A stretch of DNA of 64,000 bases from NCBI RefSeq assembly GCF_024713945.1, contig NC_134684.1:1655001-1719000 (forward strand). The letters run 5' to 3'. This DNA comes from Dermatophagoides farinae (lineage: Eukaryota > Arthropoda > Arachnida > Sarcoptiformes > Pyroglyphidae). The notes under the pieces are model-generated. The model was not told the origin of the DNA and made no database searches. It saw only the letters and a program-made list of their open reading frames with translations. Within the stretch, counting starts at the first letter, position 1, and each line of letters begins with the position of its first letter. Positions 49,933 to 64,000 of the stretch are shown piece by piece. A program made the translations under genes and the position numbers.

Positions 49933-50199
49933 TGAATACAATCGCCTTTAAAATACTGTTTTTTTTTTTTTTTGCTTATTACTTTACTTTTATCATCTTT
50001 CCATTTATCAAGACCATTTGGTCGATATTCCATTTTGTTAACATATCTCGAAAGTTGTAATTGATTAATTATTTCAATAAAAAAATTATTATTTTTATTC
50101 AAAATAAAAATAAAAATAAAATTGCCCTGTTTTTTTTTCATTGCGATACAATCGATACTTGAACCATTGAAACCGAATTCTGTGTGTTTACATTTGAAA

Positions 50200-50898
50200 A
50201 TGTTTTTCATCGGATTAACTGGTAATATTGGGACGGGTAAATCTACTGTTTCCAAATATCTTTCTAAACAAAATATTCCTGTGATTGATTCAGACCAAAT
50301 AGCACGAGATGTTGTTAAACCATATACGAAATGTTGGCATGCAATCCGTGAACATTTTGGTGAAGAAGCAATCAACGTAACTGATGGCCAAATTAATCGT
50401 AATTATTTGGCTCAAATAATTTTCAATAATCCTGATGAACGTCGAATATTGAATAAAATAACCCATCCAGAAATTCAAAAACAAACATTCATCAAAACAC
50501 TTTACTATTGGTTAACATTTCATACGTTTGTTGTATTCGACATTCCATTATTGTTTGAGGCAAAAATATATCAACCATTGATGAATTATATTATTGTGGT
50601 TAAATGTGATGAATCCGAACAAATTCGTCGAATCAAAGCTCGTAATGGTTATAATGATGAAGAGGCATCATCACGTATTGGATCACAAATGTCGTTGAAT
50701 GAAAAATGCAAATTGGCCAATTTTGTAATCGATAACAATGGAACCATTGAACAAACTTTACATCAAGTTGAAGAAATATTTCACCAAATGAAACGGCCAC
50801 CAACATTTTATGTTCTTCGCTTATTGCTCATTACCTTATATGGATTAACTTTATTTTCTTTGATAAAATTATCGAAATTCATATATTCCAAGCTCTGA
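50200..50898 (+). CDS. Dephospho-CoA kinase, membrane-anchored (DCAKD type)
   Basis: P-loop kinase of the CoaE family, predicted to phosphorylate dephospho-CoA to CoA. Intronless, 232 residues. It opens MFFIGLTGNIGTGKSTVSKY with an intact P-loop, then VIDSDQIARDVV, THPEIQK and VFDIPLLFE, all CoaE signatures, and RIKARNGYNDEEASSRI for the lid. A C-terminal hydrophobic helix (FYVLRLLLITLYGLTLFSLI) is shared with animal DCAKD and argues for an animal gene rather than a bacterial transfer. The bifunctional CoA synthase (COASY) is a different protein. ATG 50200 directly precedes the P-loop. It ends 286 bp from the converging xylulokinase. Confidence 0.92.
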   Translation: MFFIGLTGNIGTGKSTVSKYLSKQNIPVIDSDQIARDVVKPYTKCWHAIREHFGEEAINVTDGQINRNYLAQIIFNNPDERRILNKITHPEIQKQTFIKTLYYWLTFHTFVVFDIPLLFEAKIYQPLMNYIIVVKCDESEQIRRIKARNGYNDEEASSRIGSQMSLNEKCKLANFVIDNNGTIEQTLHQVEEIFHQMKRPPTFYVLRLLLITLYGLTLFSLIKLSKFIYSKL

Positions 50899-51184: not shown

Positions 51185-52874
51185 TTACATTGGTCTGGTC
51201 AATCGATCTTCGAGTTGACGATATTTTACAGCTAATGCACTATAGATATCATTTGCATCTAAAGAAGGTTTTGCAGCTATCTTAAATGTTGCACGTAATT
51301 TTTCCACCATTTCATCAAAAGACTTGATACTTTTTTCTTGAGAATATTTGGCCAATAATGCCGATCCCAATGCTCCTGAATTTGGCATCGAATCAGTAAA
51401 TACGGTAGCATTAAAAACATCGGCCAAAACTTTAATGATTGATGGATTCGTAGATGCACCACCTGTTGCTAGAATTCTAGTGCTTTTGTCTGTTTTGAAA
51501 CCTAAATTTTCAGTATGTATTTTTAATCTCAAGAATTGTCCCTCAACACAAGCACGAATTTCTATTTCTGGTGCAAAATTTAACACTTCATTGCCGTAGT
51601 AATTAAAACGAAAATCGCCAATTATCGTAGGCGATATTTCTTGAAAATCAAAATAGAATCCAATATTGCCGAAATTACCTCGTGGAACAGAATCTAATAA
51701 TTCATTGAATTTAGACCAATTGCTGTTAGCGCAATCATCTCGAATTCTTCTTCTAGTTCGAGAACCATTCTTAGAAACGATCATTCCCATATAAAGATTG
51801 TGATCTATAGGATTGCAGAGAATATGTCCCTCAATTGATGGTTTTGGCGATGAAAGGGTGAAGAAAATAGTATCGCTTGTACCCAATGATACAGCTATGT
51901 CATTTGAACCTAAGCACATTCCGGCTAATGAGGCAGAATTATCACCGGTAAATGCTGTTATGTAGCAATCTGGATCAAATCCATAACGTTGTACAAAATA
52001 ATCACTAATTGTTCCAATTAACTGTGTGGTTGGCACAACTTCGTGGCCAAGTTTTTTCATTAAATCATTTTCTTGATTCAAACTGACTGCACGAATACAA
52101 TCAAGAGACCATTGTTTTCGATTAATGTCGAGCAAATTCATTCCTGATCCATCACTCAAATCAATTGGGGCATATCGACCGATGAATAGTGATGCCAAAA
52201 ATGAACTGACTAACGAAATTCGTTCAGTTTGGCTATAAGCATCGTATCTGTGTTTGATAATTTTGGAAATTTGATTACCCGTAAATCGTTCATATGCACG
52301 TGAGCCGGTCAATTGAGCTAGACGATGAGCGCTACCGATTGATTTTTCCAATTCTTTACATTCAACTGATGTACTTGAATCTATCCATATAGGTGAATCT
52401 TTGATGGTGAAACATTGATTTAGTTGCTCATGCAAAAATCGAGTTGGATCTAAATTCATTAATATTCGTTCAGAGCCATGTTTCCAATAGACACTTCCGT
52501 GTTGCTGGCCACAGCCTGAAATGCCAATAACTTGTCCAAAATCAATAAGACCATTAAGACGAAGTCGATCTAATATTAAATCGATGGCTTTAATCCACAT
52601 TAAAACAGGTGCTGTAGCTGTATGAGCTTTTGCATCCGAATATATTCCACCATTTGTACGAAATTCTGGAAGATCATTGTCAAAATGTACAAATGCTTCA
52701 TAAACAATGATCAATTCCTCATTAATGGCTATTGATTTAAGCTAACAAAAAAGAAAATTTTTAAAAAAATTTAAGATAAAAGAATAAAAAAGAATATATA
52801 ACAACAAGAACCTGTTGAGTGCTCAGATCAAAGCCAAGCCATAATTTTTGATTCGATTGTTTTATTGATTCCAT
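51185..52874 (-). CDS. Xylb: Xylulose kinase (XYLB, FGGY family)
   Basis: Phosphorylates D-xylulose in the glucuronate-xylulose pathway that feeds the pentose phosphate pathway. Two exons (52812-52874, 51185-52741) give 539 residues, near the human 536. The start MESIKQSNQKLWLGFDLSTQ carries the first nucleotide-binding strand and STQQ turn. Other conserved blocks are VIGISGCGQQHGSVYW, TGSRAYERFTGNQISKI, SLVSSFLASLFIGRYAPIDL with DGSGMNL, AFTGDNSASLAGM, VSLGTSDTIFF and ILATGGASTNPSI. The catalytic aspartate of the GDN motif is present. I see no damage. No other sugar-pathway gene lies nearby. Confidence 0.96.
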
Positions 52875-53433
52875 ACAGTTGAGATAAATCAACGAGTGGT
52901 GTTGGTGAAAATTGTTAATTAGAAACTCATCTTGATAAACAAGAAAAATGTATGATCAGAAAATGTAAAGACCATATTAAGTGTGAAAAATCAATAAAAA
53001 AAAATTTATTATGCGAATAAAACGAGAAAAGATTTGTTGACAAAAAAAAATTTCTGGTGATAATGAGAATGTGACTATTTTCGAGATACGATATGTAGAA
53101 CAACAATTGATTGTAATGAGTTGATATGGTTTTTTTTTTTGTTGAAAGAAGAAATAAAAACAGGTTTCTCTTTTCTACATTTACATTTAGTCATCATGTA
53201 TGATTATGATTTATCGTTGTATTTTGCAATAATAATGTTCACATTCAACTTCTATAGTGTAAACAAAGAAACTGAATCAATATAATCGAATTTCCGATTT
53301 TTAAAAGTAGATTGTTATGACTGCAAAAATTAATATTCAAATTACAAAATCAATTAATCAAGACAATAGATTTTATATGAAATAAAAATCAGAATTCAGA
53401 AATCATAATTCTTAGTTCTGTTGACCGAAGTGA
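52875..53433. other. Xylb 5' flank and upstream region of copy A
   Basis: No gene is seen. From about 53288 to 53433 the sequence matches the DNA just upstream of copy B (about 56478-56681), including a near-identical 100-bp block before each start codon. The duplicated unit therefore carries its own proximal promoter and 5' UTR. Confidence 0.6.
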
Positions 53434-56358
53434 ATGAAAATGGCAAATCAATTTTCAATGTTTTCCGGTCTATTATTGAAATGTCTTCAAATGGTGATTA
53501 TGGTGAAAGCATTTCAAAAACAAGAAACTATGGATAATCAAATGCCGTTGGATCAAATGATGATGATACCATATAAAACTGTATATGGTATATCAGAAAA
53601 ATGTATCAAAACATCTGATGATCATCAATTGATTAAGAAAAATTATCAATCCTGTCAGATAGATGCATGGAAAAAATGGCATATCACTTTACATCAATTT
53701 GTAAGTTAAATACATGATTATTTGATCATTCAATGAATGACTTATGATTCAAATCCTTTAAATTTTTCCGAAAAACAGTACACCGAATCTGTAAATTTTT
53801 GTTGTTTCGTATATGAGGCATTGGAATGTGAAATGAGAATCCTATCTAAATGTGACATTGATTATTCGGATCACAATGAAAAAGAAACTCGACGATTGTT
53901 TGATAAATCATGCCAATCAATTATGAAAAATAATGCTTGCAACTTGAGTGATGATTCTGATTATCACATATATATTTATTATGGTCTAATCGTAATCGGG
54001 TCAATCGGTACAATCATGAGTGTGGCATATGGTGGCAAGAAAATTTATCGTTGGTTGACCACGAGTCGGGAAACGAGGTTGGAGATGAAAGCAGCTAAGT
54101 TATATAAGAAGGATAAATTCAATGAACGTTATGAAAGAGAATATATTCGAGCGGTTTATGAAGAACAAGTGGACGATATTGACGATGAATTATTCCAAAA
54201 TACATTCAATATACATGATAAAAAATCTGCCAATTTCAAAAACAAATCGACTCGGTCGTTTGCGAAAACAGAAAAAATATTAAAGAAAAAAATATGGTCC
54301 AATATTAACAAAGAATCGAAAAAAGACAATTCAGATTTCTGGGATGATTTTAATAAAAAATCAGAGAAATATTACAAAGAGTTATTAGATGTGGAAAAGA
54401 AGAAAAGCTGGAAATTTTGGTCATGGTCAAAAAAGGAGACTAAGAATGTGGAAAAAAACAAGAAAAGAGATGAATTCATCAAATCTAAAGCTCGTTTGCA
54501 ATATGAAGAGATCAAAAAAGATAATCAACTAAGATTGGACAAGAAATTAGAAGCAACACAAAACAAAATAAAAGATTCGAAATTAGATTTGACCGATGAT
54601 GGAATACAAATGGAAGAAAGAGAATTAGGGAAAAAGATAAGGCCACAAAAAATAGTTGCAGATAAAGACGTCGATCCACTTCTGGCAAAAACGATCAACA
54701 TTCTAAATCAGGAACAGGTTGACGTTCATCATGAAATGTTGCGAACAAAAAACTTTAAAGAAATCAAACAAATGAATCAACTGGAAACATGGTCGACGAA
54801 ATTGAAAGATACCCGAACAAGGATACGAGACAGCCGTAAAATGGAGGTTATGCTTGAAACATTAGAGCCAACAGATGTGAATAAAATCCCAGCCATTGAT
54901 GATACAAATTTGAAATCCGACAAACAAAAACCTCAAGAAGTAGATTCAAATTTGAAATCCACAAAACAAAAACCTCAAGAACTAGATTTGAATTTGAAAT
55001 CCACAAAACAAAAACCTCAAGAAGTAGATTTGAATTTGAAATCCACAAAACAAAAACCTCAAGAAGTAGATTCGAATTTGAAATCCACAAAACAAAAACC
55101 TCAAGAAGTAAATTCTGATTTGAATCAAGATAAAAATCAAACTGCTTCTAAAACTGGAAAAGAAATAACTAAAAATTCTGATTCCGGAATTTCGAACAAA
55201 GCGACAACAGAAAAACCTGCAATAATTACCAAAACCGATTCCAAAAATGCAAAAGAACCGAAAAAAGAAAAAAATGCTACATCGCCGTCAGAAACAAAGA
55301 ACAATATGACACCAGTCAAAGATGGTTCTAAAAAAGAAGAATCGGTGTCAAAACTACAAGATGAGCTTGAAAGACATAAGATGTTACACAATGAAGAAAT
55401 AAAAAAAGAACTGAAAAAGTTTGATAATGCTATAAAGGAAAGAAATCGGCATATTGATAAGATTTTTTCAATATTCAAACAATCAGAAGATAACATGTTT
55501 TCAACAGTAGATATAATTGAAGACAAAAGTAGAGATTTTTGGTTGCTGGAAATAGAAGAAAAGTTTAAATTTTATAGACTAGCTTTGAAAATGGCGCCTA
55601 ATGCAGACTCCTATTATAATGAATCAAATCCAGAAAATATGACCGCAAAGGATGTTATGAGAAAATTTTCACAATTAATGATAGAAACACAGATAAAACA
55701 GGAAAATCGTCTATGTGGTCCTATCATGGAATTGGTTATTGAAGAAATATTTGAAAACACTGATTACGTGAAATTATTCTATCCCTCTTCCAATGTGCTA
55801 AAAAAACAAGCAAAAGACACAAAGTCAAAATTTCATTCAATAAATGATCCTATATATGCAATAAAACCTGAAGATAGAAAACAGTTAATAAGAAAATTGA
55901 TGAGAGACGTGGAAATTAAGGAAAAATTTTTCGCAATGACAGAACATAGAGACGAATATCCTGGAATGAATGTAGAAAAATGTAGCAAAAGTGATGCTAT
56001 AAGTAAATTTTTAACTATCTTTAATCGAGAAATTAAAAATGATAAAATGAATTCCACTGAATTTGACAAAGACATTATAAAACAACTATCAAAAGATAAG
56101 TATTTATTACGATTTGCACTACCAAAAAATTTTAAAGATGTATCAAAAATAACAGCTAATGTTGTCCAAACAAAGACAATGAATATAGACGGAAATACAG
56201 CAAAGCCTCAACAACATCCATCATCATCATCATCATCATCACAATCCAATATGCAATCGACAACGAATCAAGCAGGAAAGTCATTAAAACAAACAATTAA
56301 AGAAATAGCAACACAATTGCCTCCTGATCCATTAACAGATATATTACATCAATCTTAG
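53434..56358 (+). CDS. Copy A: novel signal peptide, 8-Cys ectodomain, TM, coiled-coil tail protein
   Basis: I do not recognise this family. Exons 53434-53700 and 53779-56358 (phase-0 intron, 78 nt) give 948 residues. A signal peptide (MFSGLLLKCLQMVIMVKA) precedes an ectodomain with PYKTVYGISEKC, NYQSCQIDAWKKW, NFCCFVYEALEC and LFDKSCQSIMKNNAC. Cysteine spacing is C-x16-C-x22-CC-x7-C-x7-C-x19-C-x8-C. A membrane span (YYGLIVIGSIGTIMSVAYGG, about 160-182) is followed by a basic stop-transfer and a cytoplasmic tail of about 760 residues, very rich in Lys, Glu and Asp and probably coiled coil. The tail includes NQEQVDVHHEMLRTKNF, five 14-residue repeats, a Ser run and the end LPPDPLTDILHQS. The topology (type I) is inferred. 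The reading frame is clean. Confidence 0.85.
54910..55119 (+). repeat. Five in-frame 42-bp repeats in copy A
   Basis: Five direct 42-bp units encode variants of LKSTKQKPQEVDSN (units start at 54910, 54952, 54994, 55036, 55078). Copy B has only two (58182-58262), the second 3 bp shorter. This is a coding minisatellite that expanded or contracted after the duplication. Confidence 0.95.
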
Positions 56359-56681
56359 AATAAAAAATTCGCCAAATAAAATTCAGTTTTTCCATTGAAT
56401 TCATTTACAAGAAAGTGGTGTAATTTTTTTTATTATGAAAATTCATTAAATCAATGTGTAATTGAATAAATTTCCAATTTCCAATTTTAAAAACTAGATT
56501 GTTATGAAAGAAATCTTATAATAATAATACTGTGTTAGAGAATACATGGAATTTGCGAACAATAATTACTACAAAAATTAATGTTCAAATTACAAAATCA
56601 ATTAATGATGACAATAGATTTTATATGAAATAAAAATCAAAATTCAGAAATCATAATTCTTAGTTCTGTTGACCGAAGTGA

Positions 56682-59507
56682 ATGAAAATGGCAAATCAAT
56701 TTTCAATGTTTTCCGGTCTATTATTGAAATTTTTTCAAATGATGATTATGGTGAAAGCATTTCAAAAACAAGAAACTATGGATAATCAAATGCCGTTGGA
56801 TCAAATGATGATGATACCATATAAAACTGTATATGGTATTTCAGAAAAATGTATCAAAACATCTGATGATCATCAATTGGTTGAGAAAAATTATCAATCC
56901 TGTCAGATAGATGCATGGAAAAAATGGCATATCACTTTACATCAATTTGTAAGTTAAATATATGATTATTTGATCATTCAACGAATGACTTATGATTCAA
57001 ATCCTTTAAATTTTTCCGAAAAACAGTACACCGAATCTGTAAATTTTTGTTGTTTCGTATATGAGGCATTGGAATGTGAAATGAGAATCCTATCTGAATG
57101 TGACATTGATTATTCGGATCACAATGAAAAAGAAACTCGACGATTGTTTGATAAATCATGCCAATCAATTATGAAAAATAATGCTTGCAACTTGAGTGAT
57201 GATTCTGATTATCACAAATATATTTATTATGGTCTAATCGTAATCGGGTCAATCGGTACAATCACGAGTGTGGCATATGGTGGCAAGAAAATTTATCGTT
57301 GGTTGACCACGAGTCGGGAAACGAGGTTGGAGATGAAAGCAGCTAAGTTATATAAGAAGGATAAATTCAATGAACGTTATGAAAGAGAATATATTCGAGC
57401 GGTTTATGAAGAACAAGTGGACGATATTGACGATGAATTATTCCAAAATAAATTCAAACAAATAGCTGATGGAAAGTCGACATCCGTTCTCAAACAAGAT
57501 AAAAAATCTGCCAATTTCAAAAAGGAATCTGCCGGATCGTTTGCGAAATCAGAAAAAATATTAAAGAAAAAAATATGGTCCGATATTAACAAAGAATCGA
57601 AAAAAGACAATTCAGATTTCTGGGATGATTTCAATAAAAAATCAGAGAAATATTACAAAGAGTTATTAGATGTGGAAACGAAGAAAAGCTGGAAATTTTG
57701 GTCATGGTCAAAAAAGGAGACTAAGAATGTGGAAAAAAACAAGAAAAGAGATGAATTCATCAAATCTAAAGCTCGTTTGCAATATGAAGAGATCAAAAAA
57801 GATAATCAACTAAGATTGGACAAGAAATTAGAAGCAACACAAAACAAAATAAAAGATTCGAAATTAGATTTGACCGATGATGGAATTCAAATGATAGAAA
57901 GAGAATTAGGCAAAAAAATAAGGCCACAAAAAATAGTTGCAGACAAAGACATCGATCCACTTTTGGCAAAAACGATCAACATTCTAAATCAGGAACAGGT
58001 TGATGTTCATCATGAAATGTTGCGAACAAAAAATTTTGCCGAATTCAAAGAAATGAATCAGCTGGAAAAATGGTCGACGAAATTGAAAGATACCCGAACA
58101 AAGATACGAGACAGCCGTAAAATGGAGGATATACTTGAAACATTAGAACCAACAGATTCGAAAAAAATTGATGATACAGGTTTGAAATCCACAAAACAAA
58201 AACCCCAAGAAGTAGATTCGAATTTGAAAACCGACAAACAAAAGCCTCAAGTAGATTCAAATTTAAATCAAGATAAAAATCAAACTGCTTCTAAAACTGG
58301 AAAAGAAATGACTAAAAATTCTGATTCAGAAATTTCGAACAAAGCGACAACAGAAAAACCTGCAATAATTACCAAAACCGATTCCAAAAAAACACAAGAA
58401 CCAAAAAAAGAAAAAAATGCTACATCGCCGTCAGAAACAAAGAACAATATGACACCAGTCAAAGATGGTTCTAAAAAAGAAGAATCGGTGTCAAAACTAC
58501 AAGATGAGCAAGAAAGACAAAAAATGTTACTCTATGAAGAAATAAAAAATGCTGAAGCGTCAAAGAAAAAATTGGATATAAAGGAAAAAAATCGGCTTCT
58601 TGATAAGATTTTTTCAATATTCAAACAATCCGAAGATGATATTTTTTCAGAAGTAAAAATAATTGAAGAAGAAGATAGAAAATATTGGTTCGAGAATAGA
58701 AAACGCAAGTATAAATTTTGTAGAACCGCTCTGAGAATGGCGCCTAATACAGACTCCTATTATAATGAATCAAATCCAGAAAATATGACAGAATTGGATG
58801 TTATCAAAAAATTTCAAGAATTAATAATATTAGAAGAAAAGTTAGACCCGAGTTCATATAACTATGAAGTTGGCCTGATATTTTTAAACGAACGTGATTT
58901 CATAAAATTATTTTATCCCTCCTCCAATGTACTAAAATCACAAGCCAATTCGGACCCACAATTACGCAAAGGCACAAAATTAAAATATAAGAGTGATCCT
59001 ATCTATGGAATAAAGCCTGAACATAGAGAACAGTTAATAAGAAAATTGATGAGACAAGTAGAAATTGAGGAAAAATTTTTGGAAATGGCAGAACATAGAG
59101 AAAGATATCCAGGAATGAATGTAGAAAATTATAGCAAAAGTGATGCTATAAGTAAATTTTTAACTATCTTTAAGCAAGAAATTAAAAATGATAAAATGAA
59201 TTCTACTGAATTTGACAAAGACATTTTAAAAAACATACCCAAAGACAAGTTTTTATTACGATTTGCACTACCAAAAAATTTTAAAGATGTAACAAAAATA
59301 ACAGCTAATGTTGTACAAACAAATACGATGAATATAGACGGAAATTCGGCAAAGCCTCAACAACATACACCATCATCATCATCATCATCACAATCCAATA
59401 TGCAATCGACAACGAATCAAGCAACAAAGTCATTAAAACAAACAATTAAAGAAGTAGCAACACAATTGCCTCCTGATCCATTAACAGATATATTACATCA
59501 ATCTTAG
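56682..59507 (+). CDS. Copy B: tandem paralogue of copy A
   Basis: Same architecture as copy A. Exons 56682-56948 and 57027-59507 give 915 residues. The first exon differs from A at a handful of residues (LLLKFFQMMIM for LLLKCLQMVIM, so one signal-peptide cysteine is absent). All eight ectodomain cysteines and their spacing are kept. B has KQIADGKSTSVLKQ after FQNKF, which A lacks, and fewer 42-bp repeats. The C-terminal 300 residues differ widely (for example DRKYWFENRKRKYKFCRTAL against SRDFWLLEIEEKFKFYRLAL) but keep anchors such as FSIFKQSED, KLFYPSSNVLK and the final PPDPLTDILHQS. The frame is open throughout. Its function is unknown. Confidence 0.85.
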
Positions 59508-59712
59508 AAATAAAAAATTCACCAAATAAAATTCTCAGTTTTTCCATTGAATTCATTCACAGACCAGTGGTGTAATGTTTTTTTTTATTACGAAAATTAA
59601 TTAAATCAATGTATAATTGAATAAAAAAACAATGACCATTTTTATCCAATATAAACATACAAATACTGATAAAACTTGTGTTTTGTTTTTCATCAAATGA
59701 AAAAAAAACAGA

Positions 59713-62700
59713 ATGAATGAAACAGTTCGTTTTTTATGGCCATTTGTTTGTTTACAAATATTCATTGTAAATATTATGGCTCAAAATCCGGATGATATAT
59801 CAATGGTGATTCAAATGATGATACCATATAAAACTGTGTACGGTTTTCCAAAAAAATGTTCTAAAATTACTGAATATCAAACAATTACTGAAGCAGATCT
59901 TCGTGAAAATTATCGAACATGTCAAATGGAAGCATTGAAAAGATGGCGTATTACTTTCTATTCATATGTAAGTGGAACAAAAAAAAAATTTCTGTAAATC
60001 CTTAAATGATATATATTGATACACTGTATATTTGTAATTTTGACATACAATATATATGTAGTATACTGAAACTTCAAATTTTTGCTGTTTTGTATATGAT
60101 GTTTTACATTGTGAAAATAGAGCCCTATATGAATGTGATTCTGATTATGCGGATAATAATGAAAAAGAAACACGTCGTTTATTTGATAAATCATGTGAAT
60201 CGATTATGATGAATAATGGTTGCAATATGGATGGTGATGGAAATAATCATAAAATTCTTGTATATGTTACTACCGGTGTGGTTGTAATTGTTGCCATTGT
60301 ATCATTAACATATTTTGGTTGGAAAATGTATAGTCAATATTATGGCAAAAGTCAGGAATTGAAATTAGAAATTGAATGCAAAAAAAGCATTCAAGAAAGA
60401 AAAATTTGATAGATTATATGAAATTGAATCCATACATAAGGTTTATGATAATGAACTGGATAATATGGACAATGAATGGTTACAAAAAATGACCGAACTA
60501 ATGATGGAGAAAGAAAAATTGAAAAAAAATAAAGGATGGTTTAGTGCAATATTTGGAACGAAAAAAGAAAAAATTAAACAAAAAAATATTGAAAAGAAAA
60601 ATTTAATGGTCAATTTTAAAAACAATTTCAGAAAAAAATTCAAAGATCCTGAAAAACAAGCAGAAAAAATGATGAAGAAAAAAATCTGGTCAATAATCAA
60701 TGAAGATTCGGAAAACAATCCAAATTTTTGGAATGATTTTCATATAGAAAACTATTATCCAGAATCATCAAATGTAACAAATACCGGTTGGAAATTTTCT
60801 TTACGATCAAAAAAGAAAGTAAAGGATTTAGAAAAAAATCAGAAAAGAGATGAATTAATTAGAGCTGAAGTTCGTCTACAATATGAAGATATCCGCAAAG
60901 ATAATCGACGTAGATTGAATGAAGATCAATTATATTATCAAAAATTAGAGAAATTAGCAAAAAAAAAGAAAAAAAACAAACCAAAAAAATTTGGTGGATA
61001 TGATTTGACCGATGATGAAATGTCAGTGATAGAAAGAAAATTAGATAGAATGATAAGTCCGAGAAAAAAAATTGAAGATAAAGAAACTGATCAACTTTTG
61101 GCCAAAATGATCAGCATTCTAAATCAGGAACAGGTTGATGTTCATCATGAAATGTTGCGAACAAAAAATTTTGCCGAATTTAAGGAAATGAATCAACTGG
61201 AAACATGGTCAACAAAATTGAAAGATTCACGAACAAGAATACGAAATAGCCGTCAAGTGGAGGCTATACTTGAAGCATTACCACCGCCACCACGACCACC
61301 AAATGTGATTAAAATACCGGCATTGGTTGATAAAAATTTGGAAACAAAAATGACAAAAAAAGAAAATTGGATTCATAGGATTTTGCCGAAAAAATTCAAA
61401 AAACAAAAGCAGCAGCAGCCTTCAGAAGTAGATTTGAATCAAGAAACTGCTGCTAAAATTGCCAAAACGCAAGTCATCAATCGATATGAATCAATCTGAA
61501 CAACAACAAACATTAACTACCACCACTAAAAAAATATATTCAATTCAAGAACAACGTCAAAACATGGAAACATCGATAGAGGAAGCATATGAAAAATATT
61601 TTAAATTTCCATGGGTAATCAATCATGATAAATTGGAACAAGAAAGAAAATTATGGCAACAAAAAAAAGCTGATTATGAATCTAAAATATCAGAATTAGA
61701 ACAAATACAGCCGAAAGGTTTTTTAAAAAATTTATTCAGTACAGACAAATCAAAAAATGATAAACAACAACAATTAGACAAGAATCAACTTAAACAGATA
61801 CCTAAACAGTTGAAAAAATTGAAAGAAGAATTTAAAACAGAAGAATTAAAATGGAATCAAAGAGAAAAATATTTAATAAAAGTGATGAATAGTGCGGAAA
61901 AAGAAATGGATCGTATGGTGGATAAAATGAAAAAATCCATTGCTGCAAGTAAAGAGGAATTTCAGAAGAAAAAAGAAATGAAAAACATTTTTGATGTTTC
62001 AAAAACTTCGAAGACAAAAATTGAAAAATTAAAAGGTGCAATATCATTATTGACTGAGGAGGAGAAAAATTTGCTACAACAAGAAATCTTTATAAAACCA
62101 AAAGAACAAGGTAAACAAATATCCGATTATCGAAGACATGTTTATGAAGAAATGTTAGAATTTGAAAAATTAATTGCAAAAGATGAAAATAAAATCATAC
62201 AAGCAATACGGTGGCGTGATCAATATATAAAGCCATTATTAAGTGAACTACGAGATGAGCAAAAAAATATTTTATCCACTACTACTACTACTACTACTAC
62301 CAATATTCTTGATGATTCTGGAACAAAAATGAAACCAATTCTAACTGATAATGAAAGAAAATTTTTATACAATAAAATCTATGTAAAACCAAGAAAACAA
62401 GGCCAAAAAATATCAAAATATCGATCATATATTTTGAATGAAATTGAAAACTATGAACAAAAACCAATTAGTGAAAATGATCGTAAATATTTACGAAAAA
62501 CAATGGTCAATATTTTGATGCAAGAAATGCCCGAAAAAAAGGTAAAAGAAAAACGATTATTTTCAAAAATTTTTTCCAATTCTAATCATGATGCATCTGG
62601 AATGATGATCGATGAGCTAATAACAAGAGATGAAAAAGAATATTTATATTATGAAATTTTTGTCAAACCACGATTACAAGATAGACCGGTGGACACTTCA

Positions 62701-63111
62701 TTATGGTTTCATTATGAATTATTTAAAAGTCATACGACAGGAAAATTTTATGATCAATCACAATATCGTTATCATATTGATAGAGAAAGTGTTAGCAAAT
62801 ATTTGAAACAAAAATTACAACAATCAATCAATGATGATGGTGGTGGTGGTAAAGCATTTTCAATAATGAATATTAATAATAATAATAAAAATTTTTCCAA
62901 TAACGTAAAATCAATGGATATCAATGAAAATGTTGGCAAAACCATCACCACTTCTACCATAATACAATCATCAACAAATTCATCATCACAAATACAACAA
63001 ACAAAATCAACAATGGATCGTATAGGTGAATCGATGAAAAATGTACTTCTATCGCCAATAACATTAGGACAACAAATGCCTGCAGATCAAATTGGCAATT
63101 TAATTCCATAA
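59713..63111 (+). CDS. Copy C: older diverged paralogue with two frame breaks and a different tail
   Basis: Exon 1 (59713-59967, MNETVRFLWPFVCLQIFIVN...) and exon 2 from 60062 keep the signal peptide, the cysteine pattern (C-x20-C-x22-CC-x7-C-x7-C-x19-C-x8-C) and a membrane span (VYVTTGVVVIVAIVSLTYF). At an A7 run (about 60380-60386) the frame shifts by one base: one frame stops soon after, while the other continues KKAFKKEKFDRLYEIESIH, just as in A and B. The frame then runs to 61499. The downstream frame, open to 63111, is one base off again near 61440-61475. This second step could be one extra A in an AAAA run or, less likely, a 46-nt intron (GTAGAT...CAAG). The last 550 residues do not match A or B. 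They contain three repeats of an LTxxE...I(F/Y)(V/I)KP(R/K)..Q module. The gene may be intact with assembly errors, or a decaying copy. Confidence 0.65.
62050..62730 (+). repeat. Three divergent protein-level repeats in the copy C tail
   Basis: Units begin at 62050 (LTEEEKNLLQQEIFIKPKEQ), 62341 (LTDNERKFLYNKIYVKPRKQ) and 62620 (ITRDEKEYLYYEIFVKPRLQ). The first two continue into a Tyr/Arg-rich YRxxxxxE helix. DNA identity is low, so these are old. An ACT trinucleotide run (about 62277-62301, poly-Thr) lies between units 1 and 2. Confidence 0.7.
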
Positions 63112-63332
63112 AAAAATTTTTTTTTTTTATAGAAACAAAATAAATTTTACAAACAAAATAAAAACAATCATCATTTTTTTCCATTTTTCAATATGCAATT
63201 TGATTATCGAATTAATAGAATTCATCATAGTGGGCGTGGGTAGTAGTAATTCCGAATATATAAAATAAACAAAACATTCGAATTGAAATGAATCGATCTA
63301 AATGTGGTTGTTCGATCATCAATGATTATTGA

Positions 63333-64000
63333 ATGCTTTTTTCAATAATCTTGAACATTGTTCTGATCATTTTCATACTTAATGACCACCATCATATTAT
63401 TATCTATACTATTGCTGGCAATGACAATGATGATGACGATGATGATGATAATGATAATCGAATATTTGTACCATATAAACCGACATATGGTTTTCCGAAT
63501 CAATGCAATAAAATTGATTCCAATGAACAAATTGAACAATTACGAGAAAATTATCGACAATGTCAACTACAAACAATGAATGAATGGGCATTGAATTTAG
63601 AAAAATATGTAAGTATAACAAACAAACAAAAAATTTGCCAATCATTGAAAATAAATATTCTCTTTTTTGAACAAAACAAAACAAAAAAAGTATACTGAAA
63701 CGGAAAATTTTTGCTGCTTCGTAAAAAAAGTATTATTATGTGAACAGCCAATATTATCGGAATGTGATCAATCATATTCAGAATTGAATATGGAAAAAAC
63801 ATTATTATTATTCGATGCATCGTGTACACAATTTGATTGTGAAAAAATGTCCACCACCGATTGGATCGGTATCGTTGCTGCCATCATAGCGTTATTAGCA
63901 GCCATTGTTGGTGTAATTGGTGTATGTGTGAAAAAATTCAAACAAAAAAATAAAGATCCATTATTGGTGGCTAAAAAAAGATACAAAAAAGAAAAATATG
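63333..64000 (+). CDS. Copy D: fourth paralogue, cut off by the window edge
   Basis: Exon 1 (63333-63608) begins MLFSIILNIVLIIFILNDHH, a signal peptide followed by a poly-Asp run, then FVPYKPTYGFPNQCNKI and LRENYRQCQLQTMNEWALN. The intron (63609-63690) is phase 0 at the same place as in A-C. Exon 2 from 63691 reads YTETENFCCFVKKVLLCEQP and ASCTQFDC. Spacing is C-x18-C-x22-CC-x7-C-x7-C-x19-C-x4-C, the last loop shorter than in the others. A membrane span (WIGIVAAIIALLAAIVGVIGV) and a basic stretch VAKKRYKKEKY follow before the sequence ends. The frame is open to the edge. Confidence 0.8.

Follow-up and report, generated by a model that had tools for sequence, protein, structure and literature searches.

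At the end of the window, the 64,000-nucleotide stretch of the genome of the American house dust mite Dermatophagoides farinae that was analysed here (C8:1655001-1719000), stand four adjacent genes, called A to D. They belong to a real gene family, which has more members and a longer history than these four copies in the window show. C4, C6 and C8 are contigs of this genome, and other loci are named by contig and position, as in C6:4615k. With moderate confidence we read A-D from their sequences as unrecognised type I single-pass surface proteins for recognition or adhesion, in which a constant outer module would be joined to differing cytosolic tails.

The gene structure, the size of the family, the cysteine signature, the constraint on the reading frame and the tail classes could be taken directly from the genome. 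A search of its 62,435,336 bases in 22 contigs with a 141-residue query from B gave 28 matches at 27 loci (E from 1e-92 to 0.017), the surplus match arising because the two frames of C count twice. A query from the C6 array recovered the identical 27 loci, and one from the divergent C4:1.506M recovered 24, all but D, C8:920k and C8:922k. The family is defined as at least 27 loci on three contigs, locus counts being lower bounds, and many of these loci stand in arrays; past D on C8, genome searches with the B and C6-array queries found no further member. The tandem duplication proposed in a first, sequence-only reading of the window is thus borne out, and is wider than four copies.

Models of exon, intron and exon confirm two other points of that reading, namely that A-D are four same-strand neighbours with one plan and that each has a phase-0 intron at one position of the ectodomain. 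The first exons of A, B, C and D have 89, 89, 85 and 92 codons, and the introns, of 78-94 bp, all start with GTAAGT, end with AG and are in phase 0. Twenty-four of the 27 loci were modelled (A, B, C and 21 others including D; the remaining three are all in the C4:547-549k array), and their introns measure 50-102 bp. Between the second cysteine and the adjacent cysteine pair, a scan in all phases found exactly one GT(A/G)AG donor in 24 of 24 models, always in phase 0. The only intron that keeps the frame leaves a gap of 22 residues here in 16 of the 24; eight C6 copies offer another acceptor as well, 18 bases further downstream, which would shorten the gap to 16, and for these the upstream acceptor was chosen by analogy. 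The three loci at C4:547-549k carry an in-frame donor (GTAAGT in two, GTATGT in one), the exon-1 peptide with the same spacing from peptide to donor, and visible acceptors. In 22 of 24 models the frame of exon 2 stays open over 89-859 codons, the other two being C4:1.479M, with 43 codons, and C4:4.952M, which is not readable through.

The cysteine signature is C-x(10-21)-C-x22-CC-x7-C-x7-C-x(19-24)-C-x(4-11)-C, derived from 22 of the 24 models; C4:1.479M, with its short exon 2, and C4:1.506M, which has no span within range, were left out. The gap of 22 before the cysteine pair and the two gaps of 7 after it are found in 22 of 22, and the gap of 22 also in both models left out, while the sixth and seventh cysteines are 19 residues apart in 19 members and 20-24 apart in three. 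Exactly eight cysteines lie ahead of the membrane span in 21 of 24 models; one of the 22 signature members has a ninth. An alignment of 20 members, made without three near-copies and another of the C6 copies, has C35, W43, F57-F60 (FCCF), C67, E68 and C75 as invariant positions.

A hydrophobic span follows the cysteine domain in 22 of 24 models, by a criterion that we set ourselves (a 19-residue hydropathy mean of at least 1.4); the topology was derived from hydropathy and charge, not from predictor output. The net charge is more positive past the span in 18 of the 22, and lysine and arginine are commoner there in 14. As basic residues lie past the span in most members, the C-terminal part is expected on the cytosolic side. 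Hydrophobic cores are present at the N-terminus, and weak in some members (0.99 to 3.49). The earlier description of a signal peptide, an eight-cysteine ectodomain and a single span holds for A-D as far as the eight cysteines, the hydrophobic N-terminal stretch and the one span past the cysteine domain are concerned, but the two hydrophobic segments are recognised by hydropathy only. For A and B the Kyte-Doolittle means of the span over 19 residues, 1.77 and 1.49, are only moderately hydrophobic values.

In a tree of the 24 ectodomains, a branch with support 90/90 separates the eight genes labelled long-tailed (A, B, C, D, C8:920k, C8:922k, C4:1.142M and C4:4.952M) from the rest; the label of C was given from separate pieces, and that of C4:4.952M, whose own tail is unreadable, from its near-identity to C4:1.142M. 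The position of D within the group is weak (47/15). The proteins of A and B are 948 and 915 residues long without the stop, and their tails are 75% identical over the whole tail (BLAST). Some 300 residues past the span form a block common to A, B, C and C4:1.142M, with 37-48% identity (BLAST). The very long tail once claimed for A-C is seen in A and B but not in C, where the frame is broken twice and there is no continuous tail. D, described as cut off before its tail, is indeed cut by the window, but about 337 of the 417 residues of its second exon come after the span, mostly outside the window, and are visible in the genome. A profile of the tail block, run against four real and 200 shuffled sequences, picked up neither the tail of D nor the third piece of C nor the tail of C8:920k; the C8:922k tail came out at E 0.92, behind two of the shuffled sequences (0.12 and 0.30). 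An FW..F motif that by eye seemed common to all long-tailed genes was rejected on this result, and the tails of D, C8:920k and C8:922k show no detectable relation to the block. The tails of C8:920k and C8:922k are related to each other. Within single tails there are repeats as well: the 14-residue unit is expanded in A relative to B, the distal tail of C has about three related stretches of some 40 residues (LTEEEKNLLQQEIFIKPKEQ and two alike, by eye), and that of C8:922k two related stretches containing TWW, also by eye.

In the C6 array the tail seems to be encoded in a third exon, behind a second intron whose donor, after AA, was recognised by eye. A stretch downstream of C6:4615k recurs beside four other array copies and in part beside C6:4800k (BLAST); of the seven array copies, at least five have related tail sequence. 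This apparent third exon is rich in proline and repetitive in several copies, with a proline-rich PPKPPRK in two copies, and repeated units resembling HPDG-x-GP-x-TDS-x-x-VPKNIS.

Table 1. Features of genes A-D in the window, with the loci of the family in the whole genome.
Feature	Position	Strand	Basis
Gene A exon 1: hydrophobic N-terminus, PYK-x-x-YG motif, cysteines 1-2	53434..53700	+	model, hydropathy
Gene A intron 1, 78 bp, phase 0, GTAAGT...CAG	53701..53778	+	splice model
Gene A exon 2: FCCF block, cysteines 3-8, membrane span, long lysine-rich tail, stop	53779..56358	+	
Gene A tail: 42-nt (14-residue) tandem repeat, limits approximate	54907..55124	+	
Gene B exon 1	56682..56948	+	
Gene B intron 1, 78 bp, phase 0	56949..57026	+	
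Gene B exon 2: cysteines 3-8, membrane span, long tail, stop	57027..59507	+	
Gene C exon 1	59713..59967	+	
Gene C intron 1, 94 bp, phase 0	59968..60061	+	
Gene C exon 2, first open piece: ectodomain and span, then frame break	60062..60409	+	
Gene C second open piece, other frame: conserved tail block	60369..61499	+	
Gene C third open piece, third frame: distal tail	61438..63111	+	
Gene D exon 1	63333..63608	+	
Gene D intron 1, 82 bp, phase 0	63609..63690	+	
Gene D exon 2, cut at window end; runs on to C8:1719944 (417 codons and stop)	63691..64000	+	
Family loci on C8	A, B, C, D, 920k, 922k		
Family loci on C4	1.142M, 4.952M, 547-551k (five), 560k, 1.479M, 1.506M, 3.657M		
Family loci on C6	4.612-4.622M (seven), 4.798M, 4.800M, 3.232M		

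Upstream, the array is flanked by ordinary genes, a dephospho-CoA kinase and an FGGY carbohydrate kinase (50065-50895, plus strand, and 51185-52741, minus strand; Pfam). On C4, the loci 1.142M (minus strand) and 4.952M (plus strand) are 98% identical over 756 comparable aligned bases, and the pair may be a recent inverted duplication or an assembly duplicate.

The sequence-only reading had also taken the secreted side to be conserved and the tails to change fast. The silent divergence between A and B is 0.016 in the ectodomain, 0 in the signal and the span, 0.11 in the first part of the tail and 0.30 in residues 640-830. Ahead of the tail, one of about 104 silent sites has changed, compared with about 54 of 397 in the tail itself (Fisher P 3e-5), and identity in the bin containing the intron is 98%. 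Because the outer halves have almost no silent changes, and the intron bin is alike too, their likeness reflects recent copying or exchange and not stronger constraint. Along their length the two genes form a mosaic, near-identical over about 53400-54200 including the intron, 56-83% identical around 55340-55850 and 88-97% identical from there to about 56450, and this pattern is a trace of exchange between neighbours.

Constraint shows in pooled or older comparisons of the ratio of amino-acid-changing to silent divergence (dN/dS), calculated like the values for A and B as NG86 pair estimates; pairs inside a pool are not independent. Five C6 copies pooled (10 pairs) give 0.35 for the ectodomain and 0.16 for the span, B against C4:1.142M gives 0.30 for the ectodomain and 0.40 for the tail block, B against C gives 0.35 for the exon-2 ectodomain with the span and 0.42 for the tail block, and C8:920k against C8:922k gives 0.42. 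The two comparisons with B point to a constraint that is about equal on the ectodomain and on the first part of the long tail, apart from exon 1 of B against C (0.80), and the proposed contrast between a conserved outside and a changing inside is not supported in that form. Some segments do look loose, namely the distal tail of C (0.77), residues 640-830 of A and B (0.86) and the C6 third exon (0.84, six pairs of four copies); the tail block is constrained.

Gene C needs separate consideration. Its second exon is open only to 60409, and the tail block and the distal tail follow in two other frames, the first break sitting within conserved sequence in the alignment with B. The chromosome-level assembly of D. 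farinae is described as 62.43 Mb in 21 scaffolds with a consensus quality value of 36.1 (PMC11074847). If errors are taken as even at this stated quality, 0.83 are expected in the 3,399 bases of C, and the probability of two or more is 0.20; the breaks may thus be assembly error or decay. An intron is an improbable cause of the first break, where six frame-compatible GT-AG pairs all have poor donors and splicing would delete codons that have counterparts in B. Nine such pairs are present at the second break, three of them sharing one near-consensus donor, and because of this donor the second break may be an unrecognised intron.

The claim that the family matches none already known has stood up in the libraries searched here. 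In Pfam, the 20 ectodomains gave nothing near the cut-off (four families were each matched by one member, best E 0.09), and seven proteins or pieces of A-D together with eight open reading frames of relatives gave nothing at the cut-off; the best match below it was PFF1_TM on exon 2 of D (E 8e-4, 19.4 bits against a cut-off of 32.3). As a control, eight of eight neighbouring open reading frames in the window matched families. A sequence-profile search of the PDB, with its 177,635 distinct sequences, returned no match at E<=10. No viral or prokaryote relative was found either, as none of 283 pattern matches in viral contigs and none of 14 pattern matches to exact B peptides in prokaryote contigs were confirmed; with an animal gene such an outcome is no surprise and carries little weight. 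A literature search, judged by its listings, found no publication describing this gene family. AlphaFold2, supplied with B and five rows from the window (A read through the intron, C and D as separate exons), modelled the ectodomain, with B read through the intron, entirely as helices at low confidence (mean predicted local distance difference test, pLDDT, 52).

How would such a protein work? The fixed outer module, the fixed splice junction, the single span and the differing tails together suggest a partner-binding module that is wired to varied cytosolic parts. The outer part would be a small module, probably held by four disulfides, made from two exons that meet at a single conserved phase-0 junction, and closed by the single span, so that the C-terminal part would lie in the cytosol. 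Most likely this module binds a partner outside the cell or on a neighbouring cell, in recognition or adhesion. The long tails run to hundreds of residues, and the constrained block in A, B, C and C4:1.142M is probably helical and could serve as an anchor or scaffold. The cytosolic tail would be the part that differs, one surface module being wired to different cytosolic parts, and gene number and sequence would change by tandem duplication and by exchange between neighbours. We infer the disulfides, the topology, the surface location, the binding of a partner and the scaffold role from the features described above.

Several observations weigh against this explanation. Four of the 22 models with a span do not have a more positive net charge past it, and the topology is read from hydropathy and charge. 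Two members deviate from the plan, C4:1.479M with an exon 2 of 43 codons, six cysteines and no span found, and C4:1.506M with nine cysteines and no span at the usual place. The branch that sets the long-tailed genes apart is below the 95/80 mark of the tree program and carries a long-branch warning, which includes D. The models are of low confidence (pLDDT 52 for the ectodomain, and 48 for the tail block, modelled as helices), and Foldseek with the ectodomain model gave 92 matches in the PDB at E<=10, the best at 1.2 and none at or below 0.001. The constraint is also far from uniform, as single pairs of C6 and C4 copies range in dN/dS from 0.21 to 1.43: A against B has 0.74 over the whole gene and 0.80 in the ectodomain on one silent change, B against C 0.80 in exon 1, and B against D 1.15 in exon 1 with exon 2 saturated, while values are 0.97 for C6:4612k/4613k and for C6:4798k/4800k, 1.43 on two silent changes for C6:4613k/4618k, 0.69 for C4:550k/551k, 0.62 for C6:4613k/4798k and 0.56 for C6:4613k/4615k.

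The ectodomain could instead belong to a known domain family that has diverged past sequence recognition, for example another helical eight-cysteine domain of arthropods or nematodes. We regard this as possible but doubtful. The ectodomain is short, its identity to B falls to 23-33% in 15 of the 19 other aligned members within this one genome, and the fold comparison rested on a poor model and is not decisive, but 20 members had no Pfam match at the cut-off and there was no profile match in the PDB. A second explanation, that these are proteins of the male germline or sperm surface with a reproductive role at gamete or seminal-vesicle membranes, can be offered only tentatively, by analogy. In the sister species D. 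pteronyssinus the 4BetaP family and most of the tetraspanin-like TspL genes are overexpressed in males (PMC12105342). The general plan of an outer domain, a span, a variable tail and many copies is alike, and although these proteins are architecturally different, their example raises the prior probability of a function in reproduction. The outer domain here is however cysteine-rich and modelled as helical (at low confidence), not as a beta-propeller, and its dN/dS of 0.30-0.35 in pooled comparisons lacks the positive selection often expected of gamete recognition, though these are pair averages and one pair reaches 1.43.

It is rather improbable that the proteins are intracellular membrane tethers, with the cysteine domain in the secretory lumen and a helical tail rich in lysine and glutamate that links membranes or cytoskeleton. 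The long charged tails (13-18% lysine in A-D and C4:1.142M), partly conserved and modelled as helical at low confidence, would suit such a role, but among the 24 members placed in the tree 16 do not have the long tail, and tandem expansion is unusual for housekeeping tethers. That the copies are largely decaying or neutral and without present function is very unlikely. In its favour, C is broken twice, some tails are near neutral (0.84, 0.77 and 0.86) and some ectodomain pairs lie near 1. Against it, the exon-2 frames are open in 22 of 24 models, the splice signals are kept in 24 of 24, the core has dN/dS of 0.16-0.42 in pooled or older comparisons, and the chance of two or more assembly errors in a gene of the size of C is 0.20.

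House dust mites rank among the main sources of human allergens, and orphan expanded families of membrane proteins are not rare in arthropods; mite gene families without a name or function remain. The signature, the gene model and the census of 27 loci make this one searchable in other mites and in existing RNA sequencing data. If the family is mite-specific and stands on the surface, mites would have here a system for recognition or adhesion that did not appear in the literature searches made for this analysis, with an unusual split between a fixed module and differing tails. One could go further and picture a new disulfide-held fold confined to sarcoptiform mites, used in a diversified set of recognition receptors, perhaps of gametes, in which one module, fixed together with its two-exon structure, is wired to different cytosolic outputs through tails that are not the same in the long-tailed genes and in the C6 array, but this we think unlikely.

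Comparison with known systems shows partial likeness in each case. The eight-cysteine motif of the plant nonspecific lipid transfer proteins (nsLTP) is a small helical module held by disulfides, with an adjacent CC and a C-X-C between cysteines 5 and 6. The mite module is like it in having eight cysteines, including an adjacent pair, in a small module, and unlike it in that cysteines 5 and 6 are 7 residues apart in 22 of 22, other spacings differ and there is no Pfam match. Adjacent cysteines in the extracellular part are also typical of tetraspanins, which carry a CCG motif in the large loop. The FCCF that is invariant in the 20 aligned members is not this CCG, and in place of four spans, as in tetraspanins and TspL, one span was found just past the cysteine domain in 22 of 24 (hydropathy, best window per protein). 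With tetraspanins and TspL, compared by description and not by sequence, these proteins have in common that they are a membrane-protein family of mites; the D. pteronyssinus report places both under cell adhesion, and finds 16 of 23 TspL genes overexpressed in males (PMC12105342). The same source describes at least 119 4BetaP genes, of unknown function and overexpressed in males, whose products combine an outer beta-propeller with membrane helices and a cytoplasmic tail that varies and is putatively disordered (PMC12105342); of the published families considered here this is the closest precedent. From 4BetaP, with its N-terminal membrane helix and beta-propeller, the family would differ by its eight-cysteine domain, which is modelled as helical at low confidence, but by description it is alike in being a multigene family of mites with an outer domain, a membrane helix and a C-terminal cytoplasmic tail of variable length.

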